Of a stretch of 64,000 nt of DNA, positions 2,112 to 15,037 are shown one piece after another. A program made the translations under genes and the position numbers. The number at the start of each line of letters is the position of its first letter. Positions within the stretch are counted from its first letter, which is position 1. Under the pieces are notes generated by a model. It saw nothing but the letters and a program-made list of their open reading frames with translations. It made no database searches and was not told the DNA's origin. Source of the stretch: Shewanella sp. (GTDB lineage: Bacteria; Pseudomonadota; Gammaproteobacteria; Enterobacterales; Shewanellaceae). Location of the stretch: the NCBI GenBank assembly GCA_028223395.1, contig JAOIUG010000004.1, forward strand, positions 1-64,000, written 5' to 3'.

Positions 2112-3653
2112 TTACGTCAGCATTATGTAAAGCCAGTCAGGGATCACGGCGCACAATACAATACTGAATAGGGCAAAAACAAGCAGCCCATAATGTGTGG
2201 CACTGGGCTTGGCAAATAAGTGTTGTTGCTTAGCAATAAATTGCTGCTGCGCTTCACTCACGCTCCCCCAAAAACAGCTTACGATAGCTCCGGTGAGTAA
2301 AAATGCCACGGTGCCAAACAACGCAAACCAAGGCCAAGCAATGCCGCTGTATTTAACAATAAAAACAACAATAATGCTCGCAATACTGCCCGCGATGACG
2401 CCTGTTTCATTGGCGTGTTTAAACAACAATCCCAGAACAAAAGACCCCAGTCGGATCCCGACAAAAATCGATGTCAAACTGGCAATGGTTTTGAGTACCG
2501 ACTCATTGGACACACTCAGTAATGCCGGTACAACCACTGAAGTGGCCGCGACCAAGCTGAGTTTACGTGCCACACTGCTGTAGTGGTGAGGTTCTTCTTG
2601 TGGGCGAAAAAATCGTTGATAAAAATCAAACGTCGCCACTGTCGCCATCGAGTTATAAGTAGAATCTAATGTCGACATTGCGGCTGCCGCCAGTGCTGAC
2701 ATCACCAACCCTACCACAATAGGATTTGTGTGATTAAACACAAAATCAAGGATCACTTCATTACTGTTTTCAAAGTGCTTATCTTGGTAGTAAACCGTTA
2801 ATAATACGCCGAGTATGGCAAAGAAAAGGTAGAAAAAGAACGCACCATAGCCGCACAGTAACATTGATTTTTGGGCTGTTTTCTCACATTTAGTCGCTAA
2901 TGTTCTCTGAATGATTAACTGATTTGTTCCATAAACACTCAGGTGAAGAAAACTCACCGCCACCACGCCTGCCCACAAAGTGGTATCAACACCAAAATCA
3001 AAATCAAGATTAATAATGTTCAAATGCGCTGGAGATAACGTCGGCTCGGCGCTGATCTTCATCAGCAATATAACTAATATCGCAATGCTGCCAATCATTA
3101 AAATCGCGGACTGCAGTAGATCCGTCCAGATCACGGTTGAGATCCCTCCAGCATAAGTGTAAAGCGCAGTAAATAAGCTAATACAAATAATAGCTTGAGG
3201 TACAGTCAGTGGCAGTACTTGCACCAAAATCAACGCGACTGCATACAAAATAACGCCTGCAGAAATGCACTGCACCAACAAAAAGACCAACGCGTTAATT
3301 GTCCGAGCGACGATCCCAAAACGGTGCTCAAGATATTCATAAATTGATGTTAATCCTAGTTTGTAGAAAACCGGCACAAAAAAGAGCACAGTGAAAAAGA
3401 TAACAATCGGGTAATTAAGGTGAATACTCATCGCCTCCATGCCCGCACCATAAACCCAGCCTGGCATCCCAACAAAGGTCATCGCACTGATATAAGTGGC
3501 CAGGATTGACACTCCGACTGTAAACCAACCGAATGTCTTTCCTCCGGTCGAAAAATCACTCCCAGCCGTGTCGCGCTTATTGACTAAGTAGCTGATAAAT
3601 AGCGTTGCAATGACATAAAAAGCAATAATCATGTAACTTGTGTACGTAACCAT
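2112..3653 (-). CDS. Sodium:solute symporter (SSS family)
   Basis: About 513 residues and 13 or so hydrophobic segments; the order of segments and the YEYLEHRFG motif fit the SSS/SLC5 family, which couples solute uptake to Na+ entry. I place the start at ATG 3653 (MVTYTSYM), because the longer reading frame adds a polar stretch before the first membrane segment. The gene diverges from the MFS transporter at 3998, and the ~340 bp between them hold three CRP-like sites and a palindrome shared with the nearby LacI-type regulator gene. This suggests co-regulation with that cluster. The substrate is unknown; sugars, sialic acids, amino acids and carboxylates are all carried by this family. Confidence 0.85.
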   Translation of the reverse strand: MVTYTSYMIIAFYVIATLFISYLVNKRDTAGSDFSTGGKTFGWFTVGVSILATYISAMTFVGMPGWVYGAGMEAMSIHLNYPIVIFFTVLFFVPVFYKLGLTSIYEYLEHRFGIVARTINALVFLLVQCISAGVILYAVALILVQVLPLTVPQAIICISLFTALYTYAGGISTVIWTDLLQSAILMIGSIAILVILLMKISAEPTLSPAHLNIINLDFDFGVDTTLWAGVVAVSFLHLSVYGTNQLIIQRTLATKCEKTAQKSMLLCGYGAFFFYLFFAILGVLLTVYYQDKHFENSNEVILDFVFNHTNPIVVGLVMSALAAAAMSTLDSTYNSMATVATFDFYQRFFRPQEEPHHYSSVARKLSLVAATSVVVPALLSVSNESVLKTIASLTSIFVGIRLGSFVLGLLFKHANETGVIAGSIASIIVVFIVKYSGIAWPWFALFGTVAFLLTGAIVSCFWGSVSEAQQQFIAKQQHLFAKPSATHYGLLVFALFSIVLCAVIPDWLYIMLT

Positions 3654-3741
3654 TTTGGGGTTCCCGCTGATGATTAACCTGCATAATTCAATGCTAATAT
3701 GACTCAAAAACCCATAAACCTCTTCAAGTCACCCTTGAAAT

Positions 3742-3757
3742 CGTGATCTAGATCACC
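3742..3757. promoter_or_regulatory. CRP-like site 1 (SSS-proximal)
   Basis: CGTGATCTAGATCACC fits the CRP consensus TGTGA-N6-TCACA with one mismatch in each outer position, and the flanks are A-rich as in the extended consensus. Its centre, 3749.5, lies about 96 bp upstream of the SSS start codon. Confidence 0.75.
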
Positions 3758-3802
3758 AAAGAAAGCCGCAAAGAACTCATGGCAACTCATTAGCGCCAGA
3801 AA

Positions 3803-3818
3803 TGAGATCTAGATCACT
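3803..3818. promoter_or_regulatory. CRP-like site 2
   Basis: TGAGATCTAGATCACT with AAA on both sides closely matches the palindromic CRP consensus and shares GATCTAGATCAC with site 1. Its centre is 61 bp from site 1 and 50 bp from site 3, close to whole numbers of helical turns. Confidence 0.8.
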
Positions 3819-3828
3819 AAAACATCAA

Positions 3829-3844
3829 CAATGGGTACGTATTC
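3829..3844. promoter_or_regulatory. Candidate LacI-type operator A
   Basis: CAATGGGTACGTATTC is a near palindrome lying between CRP-like sites 2 and 3. Fourteen of sixteen bases match the reverse complement of 7665-7680, which lies just upstream of the LacI-type regulator gene. A regulator site between tandem CRP sites resembles the arrangement known for CytR, itself a LacI-family member. Confidence 0.7.
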
Positions 3845-3852
3845 ATCAATAG

Positions 3853-3896
3853 TTTGATTTTGATCACAGTTTGATAGCCTTGAAAAAAATTATCAT
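3853..3896 (+). promoter_or_regulatory. CRP-like site 3 and -10 element for the MFS operon
   Basis: TTTGA-N6-TCACA at 3853-3868 has one mismatch to the CRP core. TATCAT at 3891-3896 is a good -10 hexamer. If transcription starts near 3903, the CRP site is centred near -42 and replaces the -35 element, the class II activation geometry. A leader of roughly 95 nt would follow before the ATG at 3998. Confidence 0.65.
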
Positions 3897-3997
3897 CTGC
3901 CTCGAAGTGAAGATTTGAGTGTAAAAAAATAACAAGACAAGAATATAAACCAACACTAAAAGTATAAATAAATACATAAAAATAAAGGTTTTAAATT

Positions 3998-5287
3998 ATG
4001 ACCACTAAAAAACATATGAGTGAAGTTCCTATTATTCAAAGAGTCATTGCGTACCTTGCGATTTTAGTTGGGTATTTTTTCTACTGCTATAATTTCGTCA
4101 TCATTGACTACGTACGCCCTTATATTGTTGATGCATATGAGGGGATTAGTCTTGCTGAAACCGCTCAGTTTTACACTTGGCAGTCCATTGGTGCACTTAT
4201 CGGTGCCTTAAGCTGTGCTTGGGTTGCTTCTCATTTTGGTAAAAAGTCCACGTTGATTGCCATCACCGCTTTAAACGGAGGTGCGACGATCATCAATATG
4301 ATGTTTACTGATTACGCCATGTGGGCGGCAATGCGCTTTATTATCGGGATCTCATTGGGGGGCTATTTTACCGTAGCGGTTAGCCTGATGATCGGGTTAT
4401 TTACGCCTTCTGTTCGCGGTAAGCTAACCGCCTTTGCCTCTTCGATGTTCTCTGTAGCGTTGATGGTAATGGGCGCTTATGCCGCCTTCATAACCAGCAT
4501 TGATGCCCCTTGGCAGAGCCTCATGTGGATTGGCGGGATCCCACCTCTTGTGGCCGCTGTGATCATGGTCTTTGTATTGCCCAGTGACAAGAAAGTCATC
4601 GCCTACGGTGAAGAAAGCCAAGCGGCGGCAGAAACATCCAACACCCCTGCAAAGAAAGGCTCTTGGGCCGAAATGCTCAGCGCACCATACCGTAAAATCA
4701 CCATCACCTGCTTATTACTTGCTGGGCTTAACTTCTACGGTTATCAATTTTTCTCTGGTTTTGTCACGACTTACCTCAAAGAAATCCGCCAGTTTGACGG
4801 GGCAACGATTGGTGTCATTTTTTCTATCTCAGCATTTGGGTCTTTATTCGGCGCTTGGGTTTGGGGAGCGATTGCAGACAAGTATGGCCGTAAGGTCAAT
4901 GCATTTGGTTTCATCCTCGCGGGGATAATGGCCTCAGTATTTTTTGTCGCGCCTAGCGATGTCACCTTCGGTAGCTTGAATCTGCTTGCATTATTGGGGC
5001 TTATTTACAACTTCGGGCTCTCGGCGTCGGCGGTATGGGGCGGCTACTTCTCTGAGTTATTCCCTGCGCACTTACGAAGTTTTGGCGCCGCCTTGTTCCA
5101 CGGTGGGCGGATTATCGGCATGTGGGCGCCGATGGTACTGGTCTTCATCCAAGCCCGTACCGATCTCGCGACTGCCATGTGGGGCTCCCCTATTGTATGG
5201 ATTGTGGCAGGACTATTGTGGCTCTCTCTACCGGAAACCCTAAAAGGCGGGATCTTCGATAAAAACCGTAAACCTAACAATGGATAA
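3998..5287 (+). CDS. MFS transporter, metabolite:H+ symporter type
   Basis: 429 residues with 12 predicted membrane segments in two halves separated by a polar loop near residues 195-225. Conserved MFS loop motifs are visible: SHFGKKS after the second segment and ADKYGRKV in the equivalent position of the second half. This class imports organic acids or sugars with protons. It is the first gene of a plus-strand cluster followed 88 bp later by the SnoaL-type protein, then the porin. AAAGG lies 9 nt before the ATG. Upstream are CRP-like sites and a putative operator, so regulation by carbon status plus a specific inducer is likely. Similarity looks closest to the MHS/sialate-type branch, but I cannot assign a substrate. 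Confidence 0.85.
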   Translation: MTTKKHMSEVPIIQRVIAYLAILVGYFFYCYNFVIIDYVRPYIVDAYEGISLAETAQFYTWQSIGALIGALSCAWVASHFGKKSTLIAITALNGGATIINMMFTDYAMWAAMRFIIGISLGGYFTVAVSLMIGLFTPSVRGKLTAFASSMFSVALMVMGAYAAFITSIDAPWQSLMWIGGIPPLVAAVIMVFVLPSDKKVIAYGEESQAAAETSNTPAKKGSWAEMLSAPYRKITITCLLLAGLNFYGYQFFSGFVTTYLKEIRQFDGATIGVIFSISAFGSLFGAWVWGAIADKYGRKVNAFGFILAGIMASVFFVAPSDVTFGSLNLLALLGLIYNFGLSASAVWGGYFSELFPAHLRSFGAALFHGGRIIGMWAPMVLVFIQARTDLATAMWGSPIVWIVAGLLWLSLPETLKGGIFDKNRKPNNG

Positions 5288-5375
5288 ACAATCATTCACG
5301 CTCAAAAAATCGGTGATTAAACCGTTATAGAATCCAAATTAAGTCATTAACTAAATAATAAAAAGAGAACTGATT

Positions 5376-6392
5376 ATGTCTAAATATCAAGAAGCTAAAA
5401 GCGTTGTACGTCAATATTTCACTGCCATGGAAACCGCAACGCACGATACCGTTGCTGACGTATTAAAAGCCCACACATCTGCCGATTACTTATGGCGAGG
5501 CGTGTACCCATTTCGCGAACAGAGCGGCGCTCAAGCAGCCGCAGACGTGTTTTGGATCCCGATGATGAAATCACTGACCCGCATGCAGCGCCGACAAGAT
5601 ATTTTTATCGGTGGCAATAACGAAATCAACCCTGATGAGATCTGGGTGATGAGTATGGGGCACTTCATGGGATTATTTGACACGCAATATTTAGGCATGC
5701 GTCCCACAGGAAAAATAATGAGCGTGCGTTATGCCGAATTTAACTGTGTGGTTGATGGGAAAATCACCAAAACAGGTTTATTTCTCGATCTTCTGGGCAT
5801 GATGGATCAAGCCGGTTGCTATCCTTTGCCACCATCGACCGGAAAGCACTTTGTCTATCCTGGGCCTCGTCATCATGACGGCTTGCTATTTGAGGATGCA
5901 GCCCCTGAAGAAGGCGTCGCAACGCTAGCGCTTGTGAATAAAATGGTTGATGATCTGTCCGCATTAAATGACAGCGGCGCAATGGGTTGTCCCCCTGAAG
6001 TGCTCGCCAAGAGCTGGTCAACCGATATGATTTGGTATGGCCCCTGTGGCATTGGCGCCTCTTATACTATCCCTCGTTACCAGCAACAACATCAGTTGCC
6101 CTTTCGTAATAACCTAAGTGGAAAGAAGTTTAATGGCCATGTCTGCCGATTTGCAGAAGGTAATTTTGCCTGCTTCTTTGGCTGGCCTAACCTCTCAAAT
6201 ACTCCAACGGGTGGGTTCCTCGGCATGACCGGTGGTGAAGTGCGTGCAGATATGCAAGTGGTGGATGTGTATTATCGTGATGGCGATAAACTATCTGAAA
6301 ACTGGGTACTGATCGACTTACCTTATTGGCTAAAACAACAAGGCTTAGATGTCTTCGAACGAACCGCCTCCATTTTAAACCCAACATTATAG
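5376..6392 (+). CDS. Tandem SnoaL/NTF2-fold protein
   Basis: 338 residues, about twice a single SnoaL-like domain. The N-terminal half carries the typical stretch MRPTGKIMSVRYAEF followed by DGKIT and DLLGMMDQAG at about residues 110-150. The C-terminal half ends in a parallel pattern (ADMQVVDVYYRDG, then DLPYWLKQQG), indicating an internal duplication. SnoaL folds form a barrel pocket and serve as cyclases, isomerases, hydrolases or binding proteins for small molecules. There is no signal peptide, so it should be cytoplasmic. It lies between a transporter and a porin and is the only enzyme-like gene in this cluster, so it may act on the imported compound. SD AGAGAA precedes the ATG. The reaction is unknown. 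Confidence 0.75.
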   Translation: MSKYQEAKSVVRQYFTAMETATHDTVADVLKAHTSADYLWRGVYPFREQSGAQAAADVFWIPMMKSLTRMQRRQDIFIGGNNEINPDEIWVMSMGHFMGLFDTQYLGMRPTGKIMSVRYAEFNCVVDGKITKTGLFLDLLGMMDQAGCYPLPPSTGKHFVYPGPRHHDGLLFEDAAPEEGVATLALVNKMVDDLSALNDSGAMGCPPEVLAKSWSTDMIWYGPCGIGASYTIPRYQQQHQLPFRNNLSGKKFNGHVCRFAEGNFACFFGWPNLSNTPTGGFLGMTGGEVRADMQVVDVYYRDGDKLSENWVLIDLPYWLKQQGLDVFERTASILNPTL

Positions 6393-6433
6393 CGTTTACT
6401 CAACGTGTATTAACCAACACGACCTCCAATTAA

Positions 6434-6453
6434 GTGCCTCTGAAATGAGGCAC
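6434..6453 (+). other. Intercistronic hairpin before the porin gene
   Basis: GTGCCTC, a 6-nt loop, then GAGGCAC form a perfect 7-bp stem 40 nt after the SnoaL gene. There is no T tract. It may separate mRNA levels of the transporter/SnoaL genes and the porin by processing or partial termination. Confidence 0.45.
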
Positions 6454-6519
6454 CTGCTGAATAATCAATAACGGGTGGAAGGCCGGTGGCTTTCTGTTGC
6501 CCGAATAAAGAGAGCAGCT

Positions 6520-7596
6520 ATGAATAAGTCAATTATTTCAACGCTTATCCTAATGAGCTTAACGTCAACCCCGGCCTTAGCGGCATTAACTTATACCAAT
6601 GATGAGGGCAGTAGTTTAATTGTGGATGGTCGCTTTGACATTCGCTACCACGACAAGGGGGGCGATCATAATGGTGAATGGAATAGTGGTAGTTCTCGTT
6701 TTGGTCTACAGGGACTGATCACGCTAGATCGCGGCTGGTCAGGGTTTGGCCACGTCGAATGGGCCTATGACTCTGGAGCCAATGGCAGTAGCATTTACGA
6801 CCGCCTACTCTATGGCGGCGTCAAACATGACAAATACGGTACCATTGCCGTCGGAACTAAACAGTGGTCAACGTTTTATGATGTCGCTTGGTTTACCGAC
6901 ATGGGACGGGTGTTTGGCTCTCGCGGCTCAGGTTATTATAGCCTCTCTGACTGGGGAATAGCCTCTGGCACAGGGCGCGCAGAAAATTCTATCACCTACC
7001 GCAATAACATCAACGATAACTGGAAATACGGTTTTACCTACCAAATGACGCGTGAAGATGTTGGGCTCGCCAAGGGTAAAACAGCCATGTTAAAAAATGG
7101 GTTGGGCGCATCAACACTGTACCAATTTAGCGATCATCTCACCGTCGGCTTAGCTTACCATCAAAATGATATTGAGGCCGTCGACTCGGGTGTCAAGTAT
7201 GTTCAAAATGGGGACACCCAGCGTATTACGCTTTTAGGCATTAAATACAGCCTTGAGGATCTCTTTATTGGTTTTACCTATAGCCAAGGCTCAAAGTGGG
7301 AAACGGGCAACCAAGCTGAATTCTATGATCATCGTGGTATTGAATTTTACAGTTACTATCATTTTGACAGTGGTCTACGACCCACTTTTAATATTAACTA
7401 CTTAACCGATACCGGTCATCACGCAAATGGTTATAAACGTCAGCGGATCATCCCAGGATTAGAGTACCATTTCAGTAAAAATACCTTTTTAGTGTGGGCT
7501 GAGTATCAGTTTGATAATGGCAATGATAGATCTGCCGGCAGCCATTACCAAACTAATGACAATCAGTTTGCGGCTGGGATCCGCTACTATTTTTAA
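6520..7596 (+). CDS. Outer-membrane general porin (Gram-negative porin family)
   Basis: 358 residues from ATG 6520, where the protein begins with a classic signal peptide (MNKSIISTLILMSLTSTPALA). The longer frame from GTG 6475 would put charged residues before it. AGAG precedes the ATG. The mature protein shows the porin signature: repeated alternating beta strands, YGGVKHDKYGTIAVGTKQ near residues 100-120, and a C-terminal aromatic (RYYF) as required for BAM-mediated insertion. It is probably a trimeric 16-stranded barrel. It follows the SnoaL gene on the same strand and precedes the LacI-type regulator, so it probably supplies outer-membrane passage for the same substrate as the MFS and SSS carriers. 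Confidence 0.85.
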   Translation: MNKSIISTLILMSLTSTPALAALTYTNDEGSSLIVDGRFDIRYHDKGGDHNGEWNSGSSRFGLQGLITLDRGWSGFGHVEWAYDSGANGSSIYDRLLYGGVKHDKYGTIAVGTKQWSTFYDVAWFTDMGRVFGSRGSGYYSLSDWGIASGTGRAENSITYRNNINDNWKYGFTYQMTREDVGLAKGKTAMLKNGLGASTLYQFSDHLTVGLAYHQNDIEAVDSGVKYVQNGDTQRITLLGIKYSLEDLFIGFTYSQGSKWETGNQAEFYDHRGIEFYSYYHFDSGLRPTFNINYLTDTGHHANGYKRQRIIPGLEYHFSKNTFLVWAEYQFDNGNDRSAGSHYQTNDNQFAAGIRYYF

Positions 7597-7664
7597 ATAA
7601 AAGAGGCCACAGCCAGGGAAGGCTGCGCAGCTTGTGTTGTGGCTGTCGCTTAATATCACTTTGT

Positions 7665-7680
7665 GAATGCGTACCCATTC
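7665..7680. promoter_or_regulatory. Candidate LacI-type operator B (autoregulatory)
   Basis: GAATGCGTACCCATTC is a 16-bp palindrome with one mismatched pair. Its reverse complement matches operator A (3829-3844) at 14 of 16 positions. It lies 44-59 bp upstream of the regulator's ATG, in the expected core-promoter region, so binding would repress the gene. Confidence 0.7.
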
Positions 7681-7723
7681 GTGTTATTCTGCCGCGGGTA
7701 ATATCACGTAAGAGAGATTGAAA

Positions 7724-8725
7724 ATGAGCCCTTTAAAACCCACAAGCACTTCAAAGGATGTTGCCAAATTGGCAGGAGTGTCTCAGTCAACGGTGTCTCG
7801 TGTGTTTGTGCCTGGCAGCTCTGTGTCAGATAAAACCAAGCAGAAAGTCTTCGCCGCCGCAAAGTCGCTGAATTATCGCCCTAATGCATTTGCACGTAGC
7901 TTAACCACCAACGAATCAAAATTAGTTGGCTTAGTCTTCCCTGATGCTGACTACCCTATTCATATGCAGACCCTTCAACTAATTTCAACAGAGTTACAAC
8001 AAAACGGCTACGCCGCGGTGCTTATTCCTTGGCAAGTTGATGTTAATGATGATTATTCTGTCCCCAATATTTTTCAATACCGTGTGGATGCCGTCATAGC
8101 AGCGTCAGCAACATTAAACACATCGCTTTACGAAGAGTGTGAAGAGTTTAATATCCCTATTATTCAATATGCTCGCGTGGTTGAAGGGACTAAAAGTAGC
8201 TATGTGATCAGCGATAACTATGAAGCGGGACAACAAGCAGCGCAACTGTTGCATCAACACAAAGCCACCCAAGTGGTGTATCTCACCGGTGATGTTCCCA
8301 CGCTCACCAATGACGAGCGTCAAAGTGGTTTCATCAATGAATTTAAAGCGTTAACAGGATGCAGCCCGCGTATTATTGAAGCGACCTATGACTATGCCAG
8401 CGCGCTTGATCCCATTCGCGATATGCTCACTGGCGAGCACTGCCCACAGGCGGTATTTTGTGCCACAGACAACCTCGCTATGGCGGTAATGGATGTTGCG
8501 CGTCTTGAGTTCGGCCTGACTATCCCACAAGATTTAAAAGTGATCGGGTTTGATAACATTCCACAAACGCAATGGCTTAATTATCAACTCACCACATTTC
8601 GTCAAGATTTCCAGCGTTTAGCTCGAGAATCTGTGAAGATCATTATCGAACAAATCGCTAGCCACAATACTGATCGAGTGAAAATGATGGTACCGGTCAA
8701 ATTAATCCAAAGAAATACGGCTTAA
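7724..8725 (+). CDS. LacI/GalR-family transcriptional regulator
   Basis: 333 residues from ATG 7724 (AGAGAG at 7711 is the SD; a TTG two codons upstream is less likely). The N-terminus has the LacI helix-turn-helix: KDVAKLAGVSQSTVSRV at about residues 11-27, then the hinge YRPNAFARSL. The rest is a periplasmic-binding-protein-like ligand domain with GFDNIPQTQW near residue 280, typical of the family. A palindrome in its own promoter recurs between the divergent SSS and MFS genes, making it the probable specific regulator of this locus, responding to an imported compound or its derivative. Confidence 0.9.
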   Translation: MSPLKPTSTSKDVAKLAGVSQSTVSRVFVPGSSVSDKTKQKVFAAAKSLNYRPNAFARSLTTNESKLVGLVFPDADYPIHMQTLQLISTELQQNGYAAVLIPWQVDVNDDYSVPNIFQYRVDAVIAASATLNTSLYEECEEFNIPIIQYARVVEGTKSSYVISDNYEAGQQAAQLLHQHKATQVVYLTGDVPTLTNDERQSGFINEFKALTGCSPRIIEATYDYASALDPIRDMLTGEHCPQAVFCATDNLAMAVMDVARLEFGLTIPQDLKVIGFDNIPQTQWLNYQLTTFRQDFQRLARESVKIIIEQIASHNTDRVKMMVPVKLIQRNTA

Positions 8726-8853: not shown

Positions 8854-10071
8854 TTAGTCACCAAAGTCATCTAACAAAATGTTCTCAGCTTCAACACCAA
8901 GACTTTCTAGCATTCCAATGACCGACGCGTTCATTATCGGTGGGCCACACATATAGAACTCACAGTCTTCAGGCGCTTTATGATCGCGCAAATAGTGCTC
9001 AAATAACACATTATGAATAAAGCCTGTGTAGCCGTCCCAGTTATCTTCCGGCAACGGATCAGACAATGCCACATGCCAAACAAAATTGTCGTTTTCCGCC
9101 GCTAACGTATCAAAGTCTGCTTGATAGAAGACTTCGCGAGTCGAACGCGCGCCGTACCAGAAGCTCATCTTACGCTGGGTTTTAACCCCTTTAAGCTGAT
9201 TAAAGATATGTGAACGCATTGGCGCCATACCGGCACCACCACCAATAAACACCATTTCAGCGTCAGTTTCTTTAACAAAGAATTCCCCAAATGGGCCAGA
9301 AATCGTGACTTTATCGCCCGCTTTTAGATTAAAAATGTACGATGACATCTTACCCGGGGCAATATTGTCGCTTGGCGGCGTTGCAATACGTACGTTTAGC
9401 ATAATGCGGCCTTTCTCATCAGGATAGTTCGCCATTGAGTATGCCCGCAGTACGTCGTCGTCAACTTTTGACACTAACTTGAAAAGATCGTACTTTTCCC
9501 AATCGTCACGGTACTGTGCAGGAATATCAAAATCTGCATATTTGACTTCATGAGCTGGCGCTTCAATCTGAATATAACCACCGGCTTTAAACAGTACGTC
9601 CTCACCTTCAGGTAATTTAAGCAGTAACTCTTTAATAAAGGTTGCCTGGTTATGGTTAGATATCACCTCACATTGCCACTTTTTAACGCCGAAGATCTCT
9701 TCTTCAACTTCAAGTTCCATATCGGTTTTCACCGATACCTGACACGCTAAGCGACACCCTTCTTTGGCTTCTTTCTTATTAATATGATCACGCTCTGTCG
9801 CTAAGATCTCGCCGCCACCAGATTTGACTTTAACGCGACATTGACCACATGTGCCCCCACCGCCACAGGCTGATGGAATAAAAATATTCTTGCCCGCTAA
9901 CGCGCCTAATAACTTATCACCCGCTTGGGTCGAAATACTTTTTTCAGTGTCGTCGTTAATACGGATATTCACATCACCCGTCGACACCAGTTTGCTCTTG
10001 GCGAATAAAATCACCATAACTAATACGCTCACCACCAAGGTGAACATACCGATCCCAATTGCCATTTCCAT
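8854..10071 (-). CDS. nqrF: Na+-NQR subunit F, NADH-oxidising subunit
   Basis: 405 residues. One N-terminal membrane helix (residues 3-24) anchors the protein. Next comes a plant-type [2Fe-2S] ferredoxin domain with Cys69, Cys75, Cys78 and Cys110 in the [10 protein letters not shown] context. The FAD-binding domain has RAYSMANYP, and the C-terminal NADH-binding domain has [12 protein letters not shown]. It takes electrons from NADH and passes them through FAD and the iron-sulfur cluster to the other NQR subunits on the cytoplasmic side. It is the last gene of nqrABCDEF and is followed by a terminator. No apbE or nqrM follows, although those maturation genes often do. Confidence 0.97.
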
Positions 10072-10125
10072 CGGATCTACCTTTTATTTAATTCGTTTTC
10101 ATTAAGGTTTAACATGCAAAAAGCC

Positions 10126-10734
10126 TTAAATAGAAATACCGGAGAAAGCCATAAAACCTAACGCCATCAGGCCCGTCGTAATAAATACAATACCGATCCC
10201 TTGCAAACCTTCAGCAATAGCATGGAACTTCATTCGCTCACGTAGACCCGCTAGCATGACAATCGCCATCGCCCAACCAAAGCCTGAGCCCATTGCAAAT
10301 ACCGTCGACTCGGCAAGGTTATAATCGCGGTTGGCCATAAAGATAACGCCCGCGAAAATCGCACAGTTAACCGTTAGCAAAGGTAAGAAAATACCTAATG
10401 AGTCATACAGAGCTGGGATGTATTTATCTAAAAACATTTCCAAAATTTGCACTAAAGCTGCGATCACTCCAATAAAGGTAATAAGCTGCAGATAGCTTAA
10501 ATCCAATGCAGGGTAACCCGCCCAAGCAAGTGCACCTGGCGCTAGGATATTTGTGTAGATCAATTGGTTAAGTGGCACAGCTAAGGTCATGACCACGATA
10601 ACAGCGATACCAAGACCAAAAGAGGTTGAGACCTTTTTTGAGACCGCTAAGAACGTACACATGCCCATGAAGAACGACAACGCCATGTTGTCGATAAACG
10701 CGGCCTGTATAAACAAATTAATATAGTGCTGCAT
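10126..10734 (-). CDS. nqrE: Na+-NQR subunit E
   Basis: 202 residues and six membrane helices in the two-fold pseudosymmetric NqrD/NqrE (RnfA/E) fold. Cys26 and a Cys near 124 ([11 protein letters not shown]) are the conserved half-helix cysteines that in Na+-NQR structures ligate an intramembrane [2Fe-2S] cluster together with two cysteines of NqrD. It lies 6 bp after nqrD and about 54 bp before nqrF. The length is normal for the family. Confidence 0.96.
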
Positions 10735-10740
10735 AGCGTG

Positions 10741-11364
10741 TTAGCCTCGCTTACGTTGGATGACGTTAATTGACCAAATCATTAAGCCAATTAAGAAGAA
10801 GGCACTCGGTGGTAACTTGAACATGTCATTAGTTAGATACCAACCGCCATTCTCAACCGTTTTTAGGATTTCATGACCAAAGAGTGTGCCGCTACCGAAC
10901 AGTTCACGCACAAACGCCACTCCCAGCAGAATGACGCCATAACCTAAGGCGTTACCGACGGCATCAACTACAGCTAAATGCGGTGGGTTTTTCATGGCGA
11001 ATGCTTCTGCGCGGCCCATAATGATACAGTTAGTAATAATCAAGCCTACAAATACCGATAACTGACGTGATAGTTCATACGCCACATCTTGTAGCACCAT
11101 ATCGACCACAATCACCAGTGATGCAATCACGGTCATTTGCGCGATAATACGCACGCTATTTGGAATAAGTGAGCGTATGCTTGAAATAATCAAATTTGAG
11201 AACACAAGAACAAACGTCACTGCAAGGGTCATCACCAATGCGGTCTGCATTGAGTTACTGACCGCCAACGCCGAGCAAACACCCAACACCTGCATTGCTA
11301 CTGGGTTATTGGCAAAAATGGGCCCTGTTAGCATTTCGCGAGTCGAAATAGATTGAGTACTCAT
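10741..11364 (-). CDS. nqrD: Na+-NQR subunit D
   Basis: 207 residues, six membrane helices, close paralogue of NqrE. Conserved Cys30 (LGVCSALAV) and Cys113 ([13 protein letters not shown]) supply the other ligands for the intramembrane iron-sulfur cluster shared with NqrE. It begins 3 bp after nqrC ends and is followed 6 bp later by nqrE, so translation is probably coupled. Confidence 0.96.
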
Positions 11365-11367
11365 CCG

Positions 11368-12144
11368 TTATACCTCCGAGGCTTTTAATTTTTTGATGAA
11401 AACTTCAAAGCCGTCATGACCAAACCAGAACTGAATCGAGCGCTGCACGCCGCGTCCTGTCATGGTTGCGCCACTGACCGCATCAATACCGTGAATATCG
11501 CCTGCTTTCGCGCCACCTTTAACCACTTTAAAAGCAACTTTGCCTTGCGAGTTAAAGATCTGCTTGCCATGCCATTGAGCAGTCCACTGAGTATCGTTAA
11601 GAAAGTCACCAATGCCCGGGGTTTCACCGTGCTCATAAAACACCACATTCTCAATGGTATTAAAATCCGCTTTTAAGGCGACAAAACCATACAACATCGA
11701 CCAGAGACCTTTGCCGTAAATCGGTAATACTACGCTGGTTAACTTGCCGCTATCGTCAAAGACTTTAAACACACGCACTTGATTTGCACGGGTTTTGATC
11801 TTGGCTTTATCTTGCTTTCTTTTAAGCTTGATAGAGCTGTCAGGGTTGATTGATGCCATACGTGAGTCAAAGTCCATCACACTATCGCCATTGACCACCT
11901 CACCGCTCTTCAGTGTAATAAGTAAGGGCTTAACGTCCTTTGCAAACAACGCGGCTAAGTCGGTTTGCTCATTAAAATCAACATTGGCAGCGATCAGTAC
12001 ATTACGCATTAATTCTGTGCGTTTCTTAACTAACTTTCGTTCTTTTAGAACTTCTGCCGTGCCTGTGATCATAAATGAGCACAGTAAACATAAGATCACC
12101 GTGAAAATCATGGTGCCTAGAAAAGAGTCTTTCTTAATTGCCAT
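11368..12144 (-). CDS. nqrC: Na+-NQR subunit C (covalent FMN)
   Basis: 258 residues: one N-terminal membrane helix (about residues 12-32) followed by a periplasmic domain. The FMN-attachment motif SGATMT sits at about 224-229, so the last Thr should carry FMN through a phosphoester bond made by ApbE. ApbE is not encoded in this window. The gene overlaps the end of nqrB by 11 bp. Confidence 0.96.
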   Translation of the reverse strand: MAIKKDSFLGTMIFTVILCLLCSFMITGTAEVLKERKLVKKRTELMRNVLIAANVDFNEQTDLAALFAKDVKPLLITLKSGEVVNGDSVMDFDSRMASINPDSSIKLKRKQDKAKIKTRANQVRVFKVFDDSGKLTSVVLPIYGKGLWSMLYGFVALKADFNTIENVVFYEHGETPGIGDFLNDTQWTAQWHGKQIFNSQGKVAFKVVKGGAKAGDIHGIDAVSGATMTGRGVQRSIQFWFGHDGFEVFIKKLKASEV

Positions 12145-13348
12145 GGCGCTTTAGTCTCCGCTTGATGTTTGCTTTGGCCACGAGGTAATCGAAAATAGGT
12201 GCCCATAGGTTGGCAAATAAAATCGCCAGCATGATGCCCTCTGGCATTTTTGGGTTAACAACACGGATAAGTACAGTCATAAAACCAATCAACAAGCCGT
12301 AAGCCACTTTGCCTTTACGGGTGTATGACGTGGTGACCGGATCGGTTGCCATAAACATCATACCCAAGGCAAATCCCCCGGTGACTAAGTGCCATGTCCA
12401 AGGCATAGCGAACATATCGTTTTTGCTTGAACCAATCACATTGAACAATGTGGCGGTTAACATCATGCCAAACAGCACGCCAGCCACAATGCGCCAATCA
12501 GCTAAACGGCTAAGAATAAGGAAGCCACCACCAATCAACAATGCCAACGTACTGGTTTCACCCATCGCGCCCACGCTAAAACCAAAGAGCGCGTTCCACC
12601 AGTTAGGGTCGCTAAAGGCATTAAACCAAGCGTAATCAGCAAAACTGACCTTGCCCGCTGCCGTTTGCATTAAGGTAGTGGCGCCAGAAAATCCGTCAAC
12701 CGCCACTAACTGGCTTACCGCTGTTACTTGTGATGGATAAGCAAAGTAGATAAAGGCTAACGCGGCTAGCGCAGGGTTTAAAAAGTTATAGCCCATACCA
12801 CCAAACACTTCTTTTGCCATGATCACGCCAAAAGTAATGCCCATCGCCACCAGCCATAGCGGTGTTGATACTGGCAAAATCAGGGTGAACAATAATGCGG
12901 TCACAAAGAAGCCTTCGTGCAACTCTTGGCCACGCACCTTGGCAAATACCATTTCCCAAAATAGGCACACAGATAGCGCAGTGAGGTAAATGGGTGCATA
13001 AAAGCTCAAACCATAAGCAAATAAACCCGCCATACCGGTTTGCTCACTCAGGCTACCAACAAAAAAGTTAAACATCGCTAGCTGCCAAACATCAGCAGTT
13101 GTTAAACCTGACGCCACGGCTATTTGTGCTTGTAGGCCAATGTTATACATACCAAACACAATAGCTGGCAATAAGCACAAGCCAACAATGGTCATGGTGC
13201 GTTTCACATCAATAGCGTCGCGAATATGGACTTTACCTTGCGTACTGCGACCATGAGCTACCAGCAAAGAGCTTAAATAGCCTTTCACTGAACTGCCTGG
13301 CGCGTAGTAATCTTCTTGGATATCAGGCGTTTTACCCTGTTGACTCAT
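12134..13348 (-). CDS. nqrB: Na+-NQR subunit B (Na+ channel subunit)
   Basis: 404 residues with about ten membrane helices. The covalent FMN site is SGATT near residues 221-225, matching the attachment threonine of other NqrB proteins. NqrB also binds riboflavin and forms the Na+ pathway in known complexes. The start codon shares one base with the nqrA stop (TAATG), and the 3' end overlaps nqrC by 11 bp, so the genes are tightly coupled. Confidence 0.96.
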   Translation of the reverse strand: MSQQGKTPDIQEDYYAPGSSVKGYLSSLLVAHGRSTQGKVHIRDAIDVKRTMTIVGLCLLPAIVFGMYNIGLQAQIAVASGLTTADVWQLAMFNFFVGSLSEQTGMAGLFAYGLSFYAPIYLTALSVCLFWEMVFAKVRGQELHEGFFVTALLFTLILPVSTPLWLVAMGITFGVIMAKEVFGGMGYNFLNPALAALAFIYFAYPSQVTAVSQLVAVDGFSGATTLMQTAAGKVSFADYAWFNAFSDPNWWNALFGFSVGAMGETSTLALLIGGGFLILSRLADWRIVAGVLFGMMLTATLFNVIGSSKNDMFAMPWTWHLVTGGFALGMMFMATDPVTTSYTRKGKVAYGLLIGFMTVLIRVVNPKMPEGIMLAILFANLWAPIFDYLVAKANIKRRLKRHGN

Positions 13349-14709
13349 TACCCTTCCCTCTCAATAATCTCTAAACAAGCCCGCAGCTCTTTACCGAAGT
13401 CATACTTACCTGGGCACACAAATGTACACAGCGCCAAGTCTTCTTCATCAAGCTCTAATGCACCAAGCTGCTGCGCCTCATCGGTGTCACGCACCACTAA
13501 GTCTCTGACTAATAAGGTCGGTAAGATATCCAGCGGCATCACGCGATCGAGTTGACCAAATGCCATCATCGCGCGCGCAGAGCCACCGGTATGCGTGGTA
13601 AAATCAAAACGCTGCTTGGCACCTTTTAGTCGCGATGTCACCGCTCGAGTAATCGAAAACTTGTTCGAGCCACCCCGCACCCAAGGCAACACATGATGCT
13701 TAGCATCCTCTTGCAAGACCGTAATTTGATGATGAAAACGCCCGAGGAAATCGTGTGGACCGCTGGCTGTATGCCCACTTAGCACCGAGCCTGATACTAC
13801 CCGTGAATGACCGGCTCTAAGCTCACCAGCAACAACGTCAGACAACCGCGTGCCGCTTTGGACTCGAATAAGTCTTGGCTTTATCACGTCCGGCCCCGCT
13901 AAAGACACCACTCGATCCGTGTAGATCTCGCCGGTTAGAAACAGTTTTCCATAGGCAATCACATCTTGATAACCCAAATGCCATACTGGGCGCTCAAGAC
14001 TGGCAGGTAAAATAAAGTGAATATGCGTGCCAACCAGACCGGCTGGATGCACACCATTGAAAAGGTGTGTCTTAACATGGGGTAAGTCACTGCCAGGCAA
14101 CGATGTACCAGGCTCTTGGCAAAGGTGCACCTTTGCATCTGTCAGCGCTCCGAGCACATTTAACCCTGCCGCAAAGGCCTCAGCTTGCTCTGCAATCACC
14201 ACTCGCGGATCGCCTGCCAGTGGATTGGTGTCCATTGCGCTAACAAAAATACCTGCTGGAACTGTATTTAATGCTGGCACTCTTGAGAACGGTCTTGTGC
14301 GCAGTGCGGTCCATAGTCCGCTGTCGACCAATTTAGACTGAACTTGTTGACGCGTTAATGTGTGGATCTGAGCCGCGCTTGCGAAATTTATCGCTTCAGC
14401 ATGATCACACTCAATCACGATTGATTGAAATCGTCGACGTTCGCCACGATAAATAGCGGTGATCTTACCACTGGCGGGGGCTGTGTATTTAACGCCCACG
14501 TTTCTCTTATCTTCAAAAAGCACTTGGCCTTTACGGACTTTATCACCGACTTCCACCCACATCGTCGGCTTTAATCCTATGTATTCTTCCCCTAACAGGG
14601 CCACATGGGAACAAGGTTTTACTGTGTCAATAACGTGTTTAGGCTCACCGGCAATGGGCACGTTAAGGCCTTTTTTCACTGTTATAACTGGGGTTAAAGA
14701 ACCTGTCAT
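13348..14709 (-). CDS. nqrA: Na+-NQR subunit A (quinone-side subunit)
   Basis: Soluble cytoplasmic subunit that opens the operon. The family core begins at VITVKKGLNVPIAGEP and runs to the C-terminus. The open frame reaches GTG 14787 (479 residues), longer than the usual ~445. I choose ATG 14709 (MTGSLTP, 453 residues), the closest start codon before the conserved core; ATG 14718 is also possible. None of these has a clear SD sequence, so the start is uncertain. The core and the operon context leave no doubt about identity. Confidence 0.93.
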   Translation of the reverse strand: MTGSLTPVITVKKGLNVPIAGEPKHVIDTVKPCSHVALLGEEYIGLKPTMWVEVGDKVRKGQVLFEDKRNVGVKYTAPASGKITAIYRGERRRFQSIVIECDHAEAINFASAAQIHTLTRQQVQSKLVDSGLWTALRTRPFSRVPALNTVPAGIFVSAMDTNPLAGDPRVVIAEQAEAFAAGLNVLGALTDAKVHLCQEPGTSLPGSDLPHVKTHLFNGVHPAGLVGTHIHFILPASLERPVWHLGYQDVIAYGKLFLTGEIYTDRVVSLAGPDVIKPRLIRVQSGTRLSDVVAGELRAGHSRVVSGSVLSGHTASGPHDFLGRFHHQITVLQEDAKHHVLPWVRGGSNKFSITRAVTSRLKGAKQRFDFTTHTGGSARAMMAFGQLDRVMPLDILPTLLVRDLVVRDTDEAQQLGALELDEEDLALCTFVCPGKYDFGKELRACLEIIEREG

Positions 14710-15037
14710 CACAAACATTAAACCGTTAAATAATTGGATGGAGGCATAGTAGAGGTTTACTTGTGAATATTCCGCGTTCAGGGTCACACTTCGTTATCGG
14801 TCTTGTAACTAAAAAACGTAAAAAGGTGAATGACGTCTCATAATGACTAATTACATATTATATTTCTAACTTTTATGATCACTACCGTAATTTTATAACA
14901 AGAATGAAGGAGCGTGATTTATCGCACAGCGAGGAGGCTTAATGATTGCGCTGCAAAACCATCGATTGGTTAGTAGGTGGATCAGCAATGGCAGCACATT
15001 GAGATAACGGCATCCATGTCGTTAAAGAAGGCGTGCG

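Follow-up and report, generated by a model that had tools for sequence, protein, structure and literature searches.

Mycosporine-like amino acids (MAAs) are ultraviolet sunscreens of algae, corals and cyanobacteria. Their conversion by bacteria is treated in passages of PMC3083659, which cite the conversion of shinorine and porphyra-334 by Vibrio harveyi and the bacterial formation of 4-deoxygadusol, report MAA conversion for bacteria from the sea cucumber gut, and mention the suggestion that a Vibrio strips the hydroxyamino acid from MAAs; no gene for the V. harveyi conversion is named in them. Here we describe a locus at positions 2112–8725 of a 64,000-nucleotide stretch of Shewanella sp. 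(contig JAOIUG010000004.1 of assembly GCA_028223395.1, positions 1 to 64,000; hereafter the window), which combines two carrier genes, a porin gene and a LacI-type regulator gene with a gene for a 338-residue SnoaL-fold protein, here named SnoaL-A. By our estimate there is about an even chance (roughly 0.5) that this locus serves the uptake of an MAA from which SnoaL-A would release the amino acid, and this is the best overall explanation that we can offer. The V. harveyi conversion resembles it in that the hosts are related and hydroxyamino acid release is the very reaction proposed, but its connection with SnoaL-A is one that we infer. Catabolic uptake loci of this plan are of a known kind, and the enzyme family and its pathway appear to be undescribed within the literature searched.

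Two groups of described proteins were linked to SnoaL-A by fold search. It shares its fold with the SnoaL and AknH polyketide cyclases (1sjw and 2f98; PF07366), with Foldseek E values of 8e-07 and 1.5e-06, but differs from them in being a tandem protein of 338 residues encoded in an uptake locus and in having only about 20% identity to them over one domain. The polyether epoxide hydrolases Lsd19 and MonBI-MonBII were the top Foldseek matches and were aligned over both halves, but at 8–11% identity, with TM scores of 0.28–0.34 to the SnoaL-A query and a root-mean-square deviation (rmsd) of 16–18, so that their two halves are arranged differently from those of SnoaL-A. A plain SnoaL polyketide cyclase or SnoaL-DnrD methyl ester cyclase (NF033407) was rejected as an identity, since the score was 19.6 bits against a cut-off of 200.

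SnoaL-A and the genes that accompany it

The SnoaL-A gene (5376..6392, plus strand) encodes a SnoaL/NTF2-fold protein without a signal peptide that scored 40.4 bits with Pfam PF07366, for which the gathering cut-off is 28.4. In an AlphaFold2 model (pLDDT 90.1, pTM 0.90) the elements of the two halves are similarly ordered, which supports the duplicated fold proposed in the first-pass annotation of the window, and the structure 3kkg matched the first half with a Z score of 17.4 and an rmsd of 2.2 over 138 residues; the fold matches listed cover mostly residues 1–151 and so bear chiefly on the first half. No solved relative was found by sequence below an E value of 0.01. Of 93 relatives 80 were kept, and with these the protein shares 62–93% identity; they come from Vibrionaceae, Moritella, Endozoicomonas, Marinomonas, Microbulbifer, Granulosicoccus, Clostridia, Fusobacteriota, Spirochaetes, Bacillaceae, Anaerolineae and others, and more distant relatives are carried on plasmids of Rhodobacterales, Ensifer and Halobellus. 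Across 53 sequences the mean column identity was 74%, and more than 30 polar residues were invariant.

The open frames of 82 loci were clustered and labelled from seeds in order to survey the neighbours of SnoaL-A; locus L001 is the window's own piece, and L001 and L002 comprised only 4 kb. The LacI protein family was present in 53 of the 82 loci (a few of its members being binding proteins) and the porin family in 24. An L-serine ammonia-lyase gene was found in 26 loci, all from Vibrionales, where it lies within the unit, and in 24 of these it directly adjoins the gene for the SSS carrier, with a gap of 9–44 bp in 13 and overlapping frames in 11, the overlaps being ascribed to over-long frame starts. 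The copy in L006 scored 650 bits with TIGR00720 (cut-off 345) and is thereby assigned to that family; this copy does not belong to the window. Twelve of 14 genomes had an ammonia-lyase copy at least 73% alike together with another of 51–56%. Vibrionales loci lacking the gene include L011, L019, L022, L028, L029 and L032, and in the genomes of L011 and L022 a close copy lies away from the SnoaL-A locus. The first-pass annotation had called the SnoaL-fold protein the only enzyme of the locus. This is correct for the host locus and incomplete for its relatives, and the ammonia-lyase could not have been seen from the window, because the host has no such gene at this place. Beside the ammonia-lyase gene, 11 Vibrio loci encode a LysE-type exporter and an AsnC-type regulator (by Pfam for L006), and in V. 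pelagius genes for sarcosine oxidase and purU follow downstream of the SnoaL genes.

A second cluster, with genes of catabolic type, accompanies SnoaL-A in part of its carriers. It is marked by another SnoaL-fold protein, SnoaL-B, which was found in 24 of the 82 loci; MFS, SSS and SnoaL-B occurred together in 12 loci, eleven of them outside Vibrionales. Homologues of HisD and of HpcH/HpaI were each present in 12 loci, a sugar-type binding protein in 10, an alpha/beta hydrolase in five, a two-cupin protein in four, a one-cupin protein in three and an RraA-type protein in two. In Photobacterium ganghwense (L016, L126) both clusters stand side by side, in the order ammonia-lyase, SSS, MFS and SnoaL-A, then hydrolase, cupin, SDR, HisD homologue and aldolase, then a second LacI, SnoaL-B, another SnoaL protein, a second SSS and, at the end, a lacI of the uptake type. 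This last gene is 86% identical to the uptake lacI of V. owensii and is preceded by an operator-like site. V. coralliilyticus (L022, L128) has the two parts on separate contigs and no lacI next to SnoaL-A; here it is the catabolic part that ends in a lacI of the uptake type (85%) with an operator-like site. Since a regulator gene of the uptake type thus closes the catabolic cluster in both species, the two clusters appear to be functionally tied. Among 14 Vibrionaceae and Moritella genomes with SnoaL-A, SnoaL-B was found in seven and a HisD homologue of at least 91% in five, so that part of the carriers do have further catabolic genes, which adjoin the locus or form a separate cluster. Neither G114, the one complete genome among relatives with the locus, nor the incomplete host assembly yielded SnoaL-B, and HisD matches there reached only 36–37%. 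With the second cluster found in neither of them, the minimal locus should be useful alone, and it probably harvests the amino acid only.

Several of these neighbours bear on the chemistry of the substrate. The closest solved relative of the HisD homologue in L071 is the sulfopropanediol 3-dehydrogenase HpsN (6e-110), an enzyme acting on a primary alcohol, and the homologue's own substrate may differ; two Bacillaceae loci have an iron-dependent alcohol dehydrogenase and an aldehyde dehydrogenase and no HisD homologue. Creatininase-family proteins in L043, L137 and L138 had the 3-dehydro-scyllo-inosose hydrolase IolN as their best model (NF041098), but with 163–174 bits they stayed below its curated cut-off of 245. 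A protein of L067 is a relative of the L043 protein (61%), the L137 gene adjoins SnoaL-B and lies 12–17 kb from the SnoaL-A gene of L038, the L138 contig carries no SnoaL gene, and orthologues of at least 57% were present in six of eight genomes searched. L137 also encodes an IolB-like protein (126 bits, cut-off 205). MtaA/CmuA-like URO-D, corrinoid, RACo or MeTr proteins occurred in L038, L043 and L067, the MtaA/CmuA and corrinoid matches passing Pfam and mostly missing NCBIfam cut-offs, and MetE-II was found in the plasmid records L085, L089, L108 and L109 and not in L083, L084, L086/L107, L087 or L088. No solved relative of the two-cupin protein was found by sequence. The ring carbon skeleton of an MAA would fit 4-carboxy-4-hydroxy-2-oxoadipate aldolase; the RraA neighbour scored far below the cut-off for that enzyme, its best solved relative is uncharacterised, and the assignment is not claimed.

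Beside these clusters, a TauE/SafE-type exporter that could export a product is encoded next to the SnoaL-B/ABC cluster in L131 (8241–9074) and L132 (8425–9180; Pfam for L132). A MesX (DUF1852) and a MetE-type protein are encoded at L107:5953–7983; some 11 kb separate them from the SnoaL genes of V. pelagius, and a transposase lies in this interval. In the Vibrio loci L019 and L032 SnoaL-A has no carrier or regulator labelled beside it, and flanking families common to L019 and L022 suggest a loss. Beyond lacI, a sulfatase gene was found in eight of the 82 loci (L006:13776–15278 and seven further Vibrio loci; Pfam for L006); sulfate esters of MAAs in corals are mentioned in the passages of PMC3083659.

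Candidate substrate and competing readings

Taken together, the neighbours suggest an O-methylated carbocycle that bears a hydroxymethyl group and an amino acid. MAAs combine such features: their carbocycle carries a hydroxymethyl group and a methyl ether, along with a hydroxyamino acid. We give even odds to the assignment of this substrate and of amino acid release by SnoaL-A. The locus would import a small O-methylated compound of the cyclitol type that bears an amino acid and is probably anionic; an MAA such as shinorine is the likeliest candidate, and the porin and the MFS and SSS carriers would move the compound or its products across the membranes. SnoaL-A would cleave the hydroxyamino acid (serine or threonine) off the ring, and serine would be turned into pyruvate by an L-serine ammonia-lyase, whose gene belongs to the unit itself in most Vibrionales loci and lies elsewhere in the genome of the host. 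In the minimal version the remaining ring would probably be excreted. V. owensii (L018), which we take to belong to the Harveyi clade, has such a minimal locus without SnoaL-B, and this, with the conversion cited for V. harveyi, fits an enzyme that removes serine and then stops. In other carriers the second cluster could take the ring to central metabolism: besides SnoaL-B and further SnoaL proteins, the HpsN-like enzyme, or the iron-dependent alcohol dehydrogenase with the aldehyde dehydrogenase, may oxidise the CH2OH group, and an SDR would take part; in some carriers a methyl-transfer system may act on the OCH3 group; a cupin protein may contribute, and an alpha/beta or IolN-like hydrolase may open the ring, with an HpcH/HpaI or RraA-type aldolase to follow. 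At slightly less than even odds, we put forward a pathway for eating MAAs that spans phyla, in which SnoaL-A and SnoaL-B would be new SnoaL-fold enzymes hydrolysing ring C–N bonds to release serine and then glycine, and in which minimal carriers would return the stripped ring to their surroundings.

Several observations weigh against the MAA assignment. The host and G114 have no ammonia-lyase gene at the locus and only copies of 51–55% elsewhere; none was seen in non-Vibrionales loci, as far as the stretches reach; and several genomes have close copies outside the locus, of which the one that was read (L134) had no related neighbour. Carriers include gut Clostridia, for which MAAs are no obvious food. 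The profile match between SnoaL-A and SnoaL-B was weak (probability 5%, E 0.0077). Methyl-transfer genes are rare (three of 82 loci and four of nine plasmid records), and the Vibrionales clusters that were read had no gene labelled as such. Corrinoid proteins give only moderate evidence, because eight genomes had 3–15 matches each and such proteins are common in anaerobes of this kind. The IolN and IolB matches stay under their cut-offs and would suit plain cyclitols too, and MAA breakdown offers no evident role for the SDR and FucI-like proteins.

One other reading, which we consider unlikely, is that the substrate is a different amino-acid-yielding or acidic compound, neither an MAA nor another such carbocycle, and that the neighbours of HpsN-like, IolN-like and methyl-transfer type found in other phyla come from diverged pathways that have just the SnoaL enzyme in common. 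Many loci show just SnoaL-A, the carriers and LacI, with or without SnoaL-B, and so constrain the substrate little, and SnoaL-A has no close solved relative; its conservation, however, makes one reaction and one type of substrate likely, and both gene sets come together in P. ganghwense. The main rival to MAAs is the class of cyclitols in general. A different carbocycle (an O-methyl inositol or an aminocyclitol, for example), whose keto forms the SnoaL proteins would isomerise or dehydrate without any release of an amino acid, would accommodate the IolN-like ring hydrolases and the IolB-like protein, the SDR and FucI-like isomerase of SnoaL clusters, and the sugar-type ABC systems of 10 of the 82 loci and of plasmid clusters, and methyl-transfer genes suit methyl ethers generally. 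This too we regard as improbable: it leaves the HpsN-like enzyme and the serine ammonia-lyase unexplained, the IolN and IolB scores do not reach their cut-offs, and the annotated plasmid clusters contain no gene named as an inositol dehydrogenase or as of IolE type, unlabelled frames elsewhere not having been scanned. Finally, NTF2-fold proteins can be non-enzymatic, and two carriers with one small protein might serve a non-catabolic locus in which the SnoaL protein would bind an imported signal or osmolyte or render it harmless, but the CRP-like sites, the ammonia-lyase within the unit, the linkage to dehydrogenase and aldolase genes and the invariant polar residues make this very improbable.

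In the literature searched, with most subscription journals outside its reach, no enzyme for MAA conversion and no paper containing both 'mycosporine' and 'SnoaL' were found, and in the passages of PMC7660261 'ester cyclase' denotes a chlorophyll enzyme. Neither this search nor the survey of neighbours turned up a homologue beside a known pathway with a defined substrate, and the first-pass description of the locus, as serving the uptake of an unidentified compound and encoding a single enzyme, is upheld. If MAAs are indeed the substrate, the locus would supply genes for the conversion reported in passages of PMC3083659 for sea cucumber gut bacteria, a function would be assigned to a very conserved, uncharacterised SnoaL-fold family, and sequence data could be used to follow how natural sunscreens are lost in communities of seawater, corals and guts. 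Should the substrate be a different one, the pathway would still lend itself to direct testing, given the operator, the linkage of the two clusters and the ammonia-lyase.

Control region of the locus

A candidate LacI operator (3829..3844, no strand assigned, as for all sites here) lies in the divergent region between the SSS and MFS genes, between CRP-like sites at 3742..3757 and 3803..3818 (two mismatches each) and at 3853..3868 (one mismatch). A second operator copy (7665..7680) precedes lacI and is a candidate site of autoregulation. The number of such sites is not above chance (three found with two mismatches in the window against 2.5 expected), and for this reason the case for the operator rests on placement and conservation. 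The motif GAATNNGTACNNATT had three matches at two places in 2.05 Mb of host sequence, against six for the backward control, and both places fall within the SnoaL-A locus. The strict motif TGGGTRCGYANTCA occurred once per genome in all 14 genomes searched, always within the SnoaL-A locus, against five matches in all for the backward control; the genomes were hand-picked among the 80 loci, their completeness is not stated, and the motif was built from these loci, so that its absence elsewhere is independent evidence and its presence is not. In view of this absence outside the locus, the predicted regulon is local at the level of the strict motif. A distant regulon sharing the operator, which the first-pass annotation had entertained for missing catabolic genes, was accordingly dismissed at this level, a degenerate motif not having been searched genome-wide.

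The operator between CRP-like sites is conserved in Vibrionaceae and Moritella among the rows listed, about one third of 30 aligned stretches; L023 was left out of the alignment, and in several stretches the best automatic match fell on SSS start codons. The operator showed 3–4 mismatches in L017, L025 and L042. A copy with at most three mismatches precedes lacI in 22 of the 30 stretches, and no operator-like site was found before the porin gene in any of 23 stretches. In G114 the site in the divergent region has two mismatches, and none with four or fewer was found before its lacI. LacI, probably repressing, and CRP, probably activating, would act on both divergent transcripts; the joint control proposed earlier is consistent with the motifs of the divergent region.

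Gene layout and host

The five genes reported in the first-pass annotation were all recovered where it had placed them. The SSS-family sodium:solute symporter gene (2112..3653) lies on the minus strand, and the MFS, SnoaL-A, porin and LacI genes run divergently from it. Its product belongs to the family by PF00474 (165 bits) and TIGR00813 (252 bits), and its solved relatives include iodide, putative sodium:solute (5nv9), multivitamin and monocarboxylate symporters; the frame is open to 3707, and the start at 3653 is likelier, homologues in L006, L012 and L034 beginning with MVTYSS. The MFS carrier gene (3998..5287, plus strand; PF07690, MFS_1, 134 bits) encodes a distant likeness of aromatic-acid and sialate H+ symporters in NCBIfam matches that are all below cut-off, and no solved relative was found by sequence at 1e-10. 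The outer-membrane porin gene (6520..7596, plus strand) is so named because of its signal peptide and its matches to the PhoE and OmpC models, which at 57 of 599 and 47.5 of 484 bits are far under the cut-offs; no Pfam match above cut-off was found. The LacI-family regulator (7724..8725, plus strand; 62.7 bits) has the LacI helix-turn-helix and sugar-binding domains (PF00356 and PF13377, both above cut-off). The starts of the porin and LacI genes were revised to 6520 and 7724.

The host assembly is 52.6% complete, and SnoaL-A was found in two of 152 genomes of the family, the host counted. In a tree of 53 relatives the SnoaL-A of the window grouped with sequences of V. crassostreae and A. fischeri and apart from its own-genus relative, and this placement suggests acquisition by transfer from Vibrionaceae. 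A cation/proton antiporter gene (PF00999; 169–1974) lies 137 bp past the SSS gene, at the place where most Vibrionales loci have the serine ammonia-lyase gene. Beyond lacI, an ordinary operon for the Na+-translocating NADH:quinone reductase (nqr; 8854–14787) was recognised by eye.

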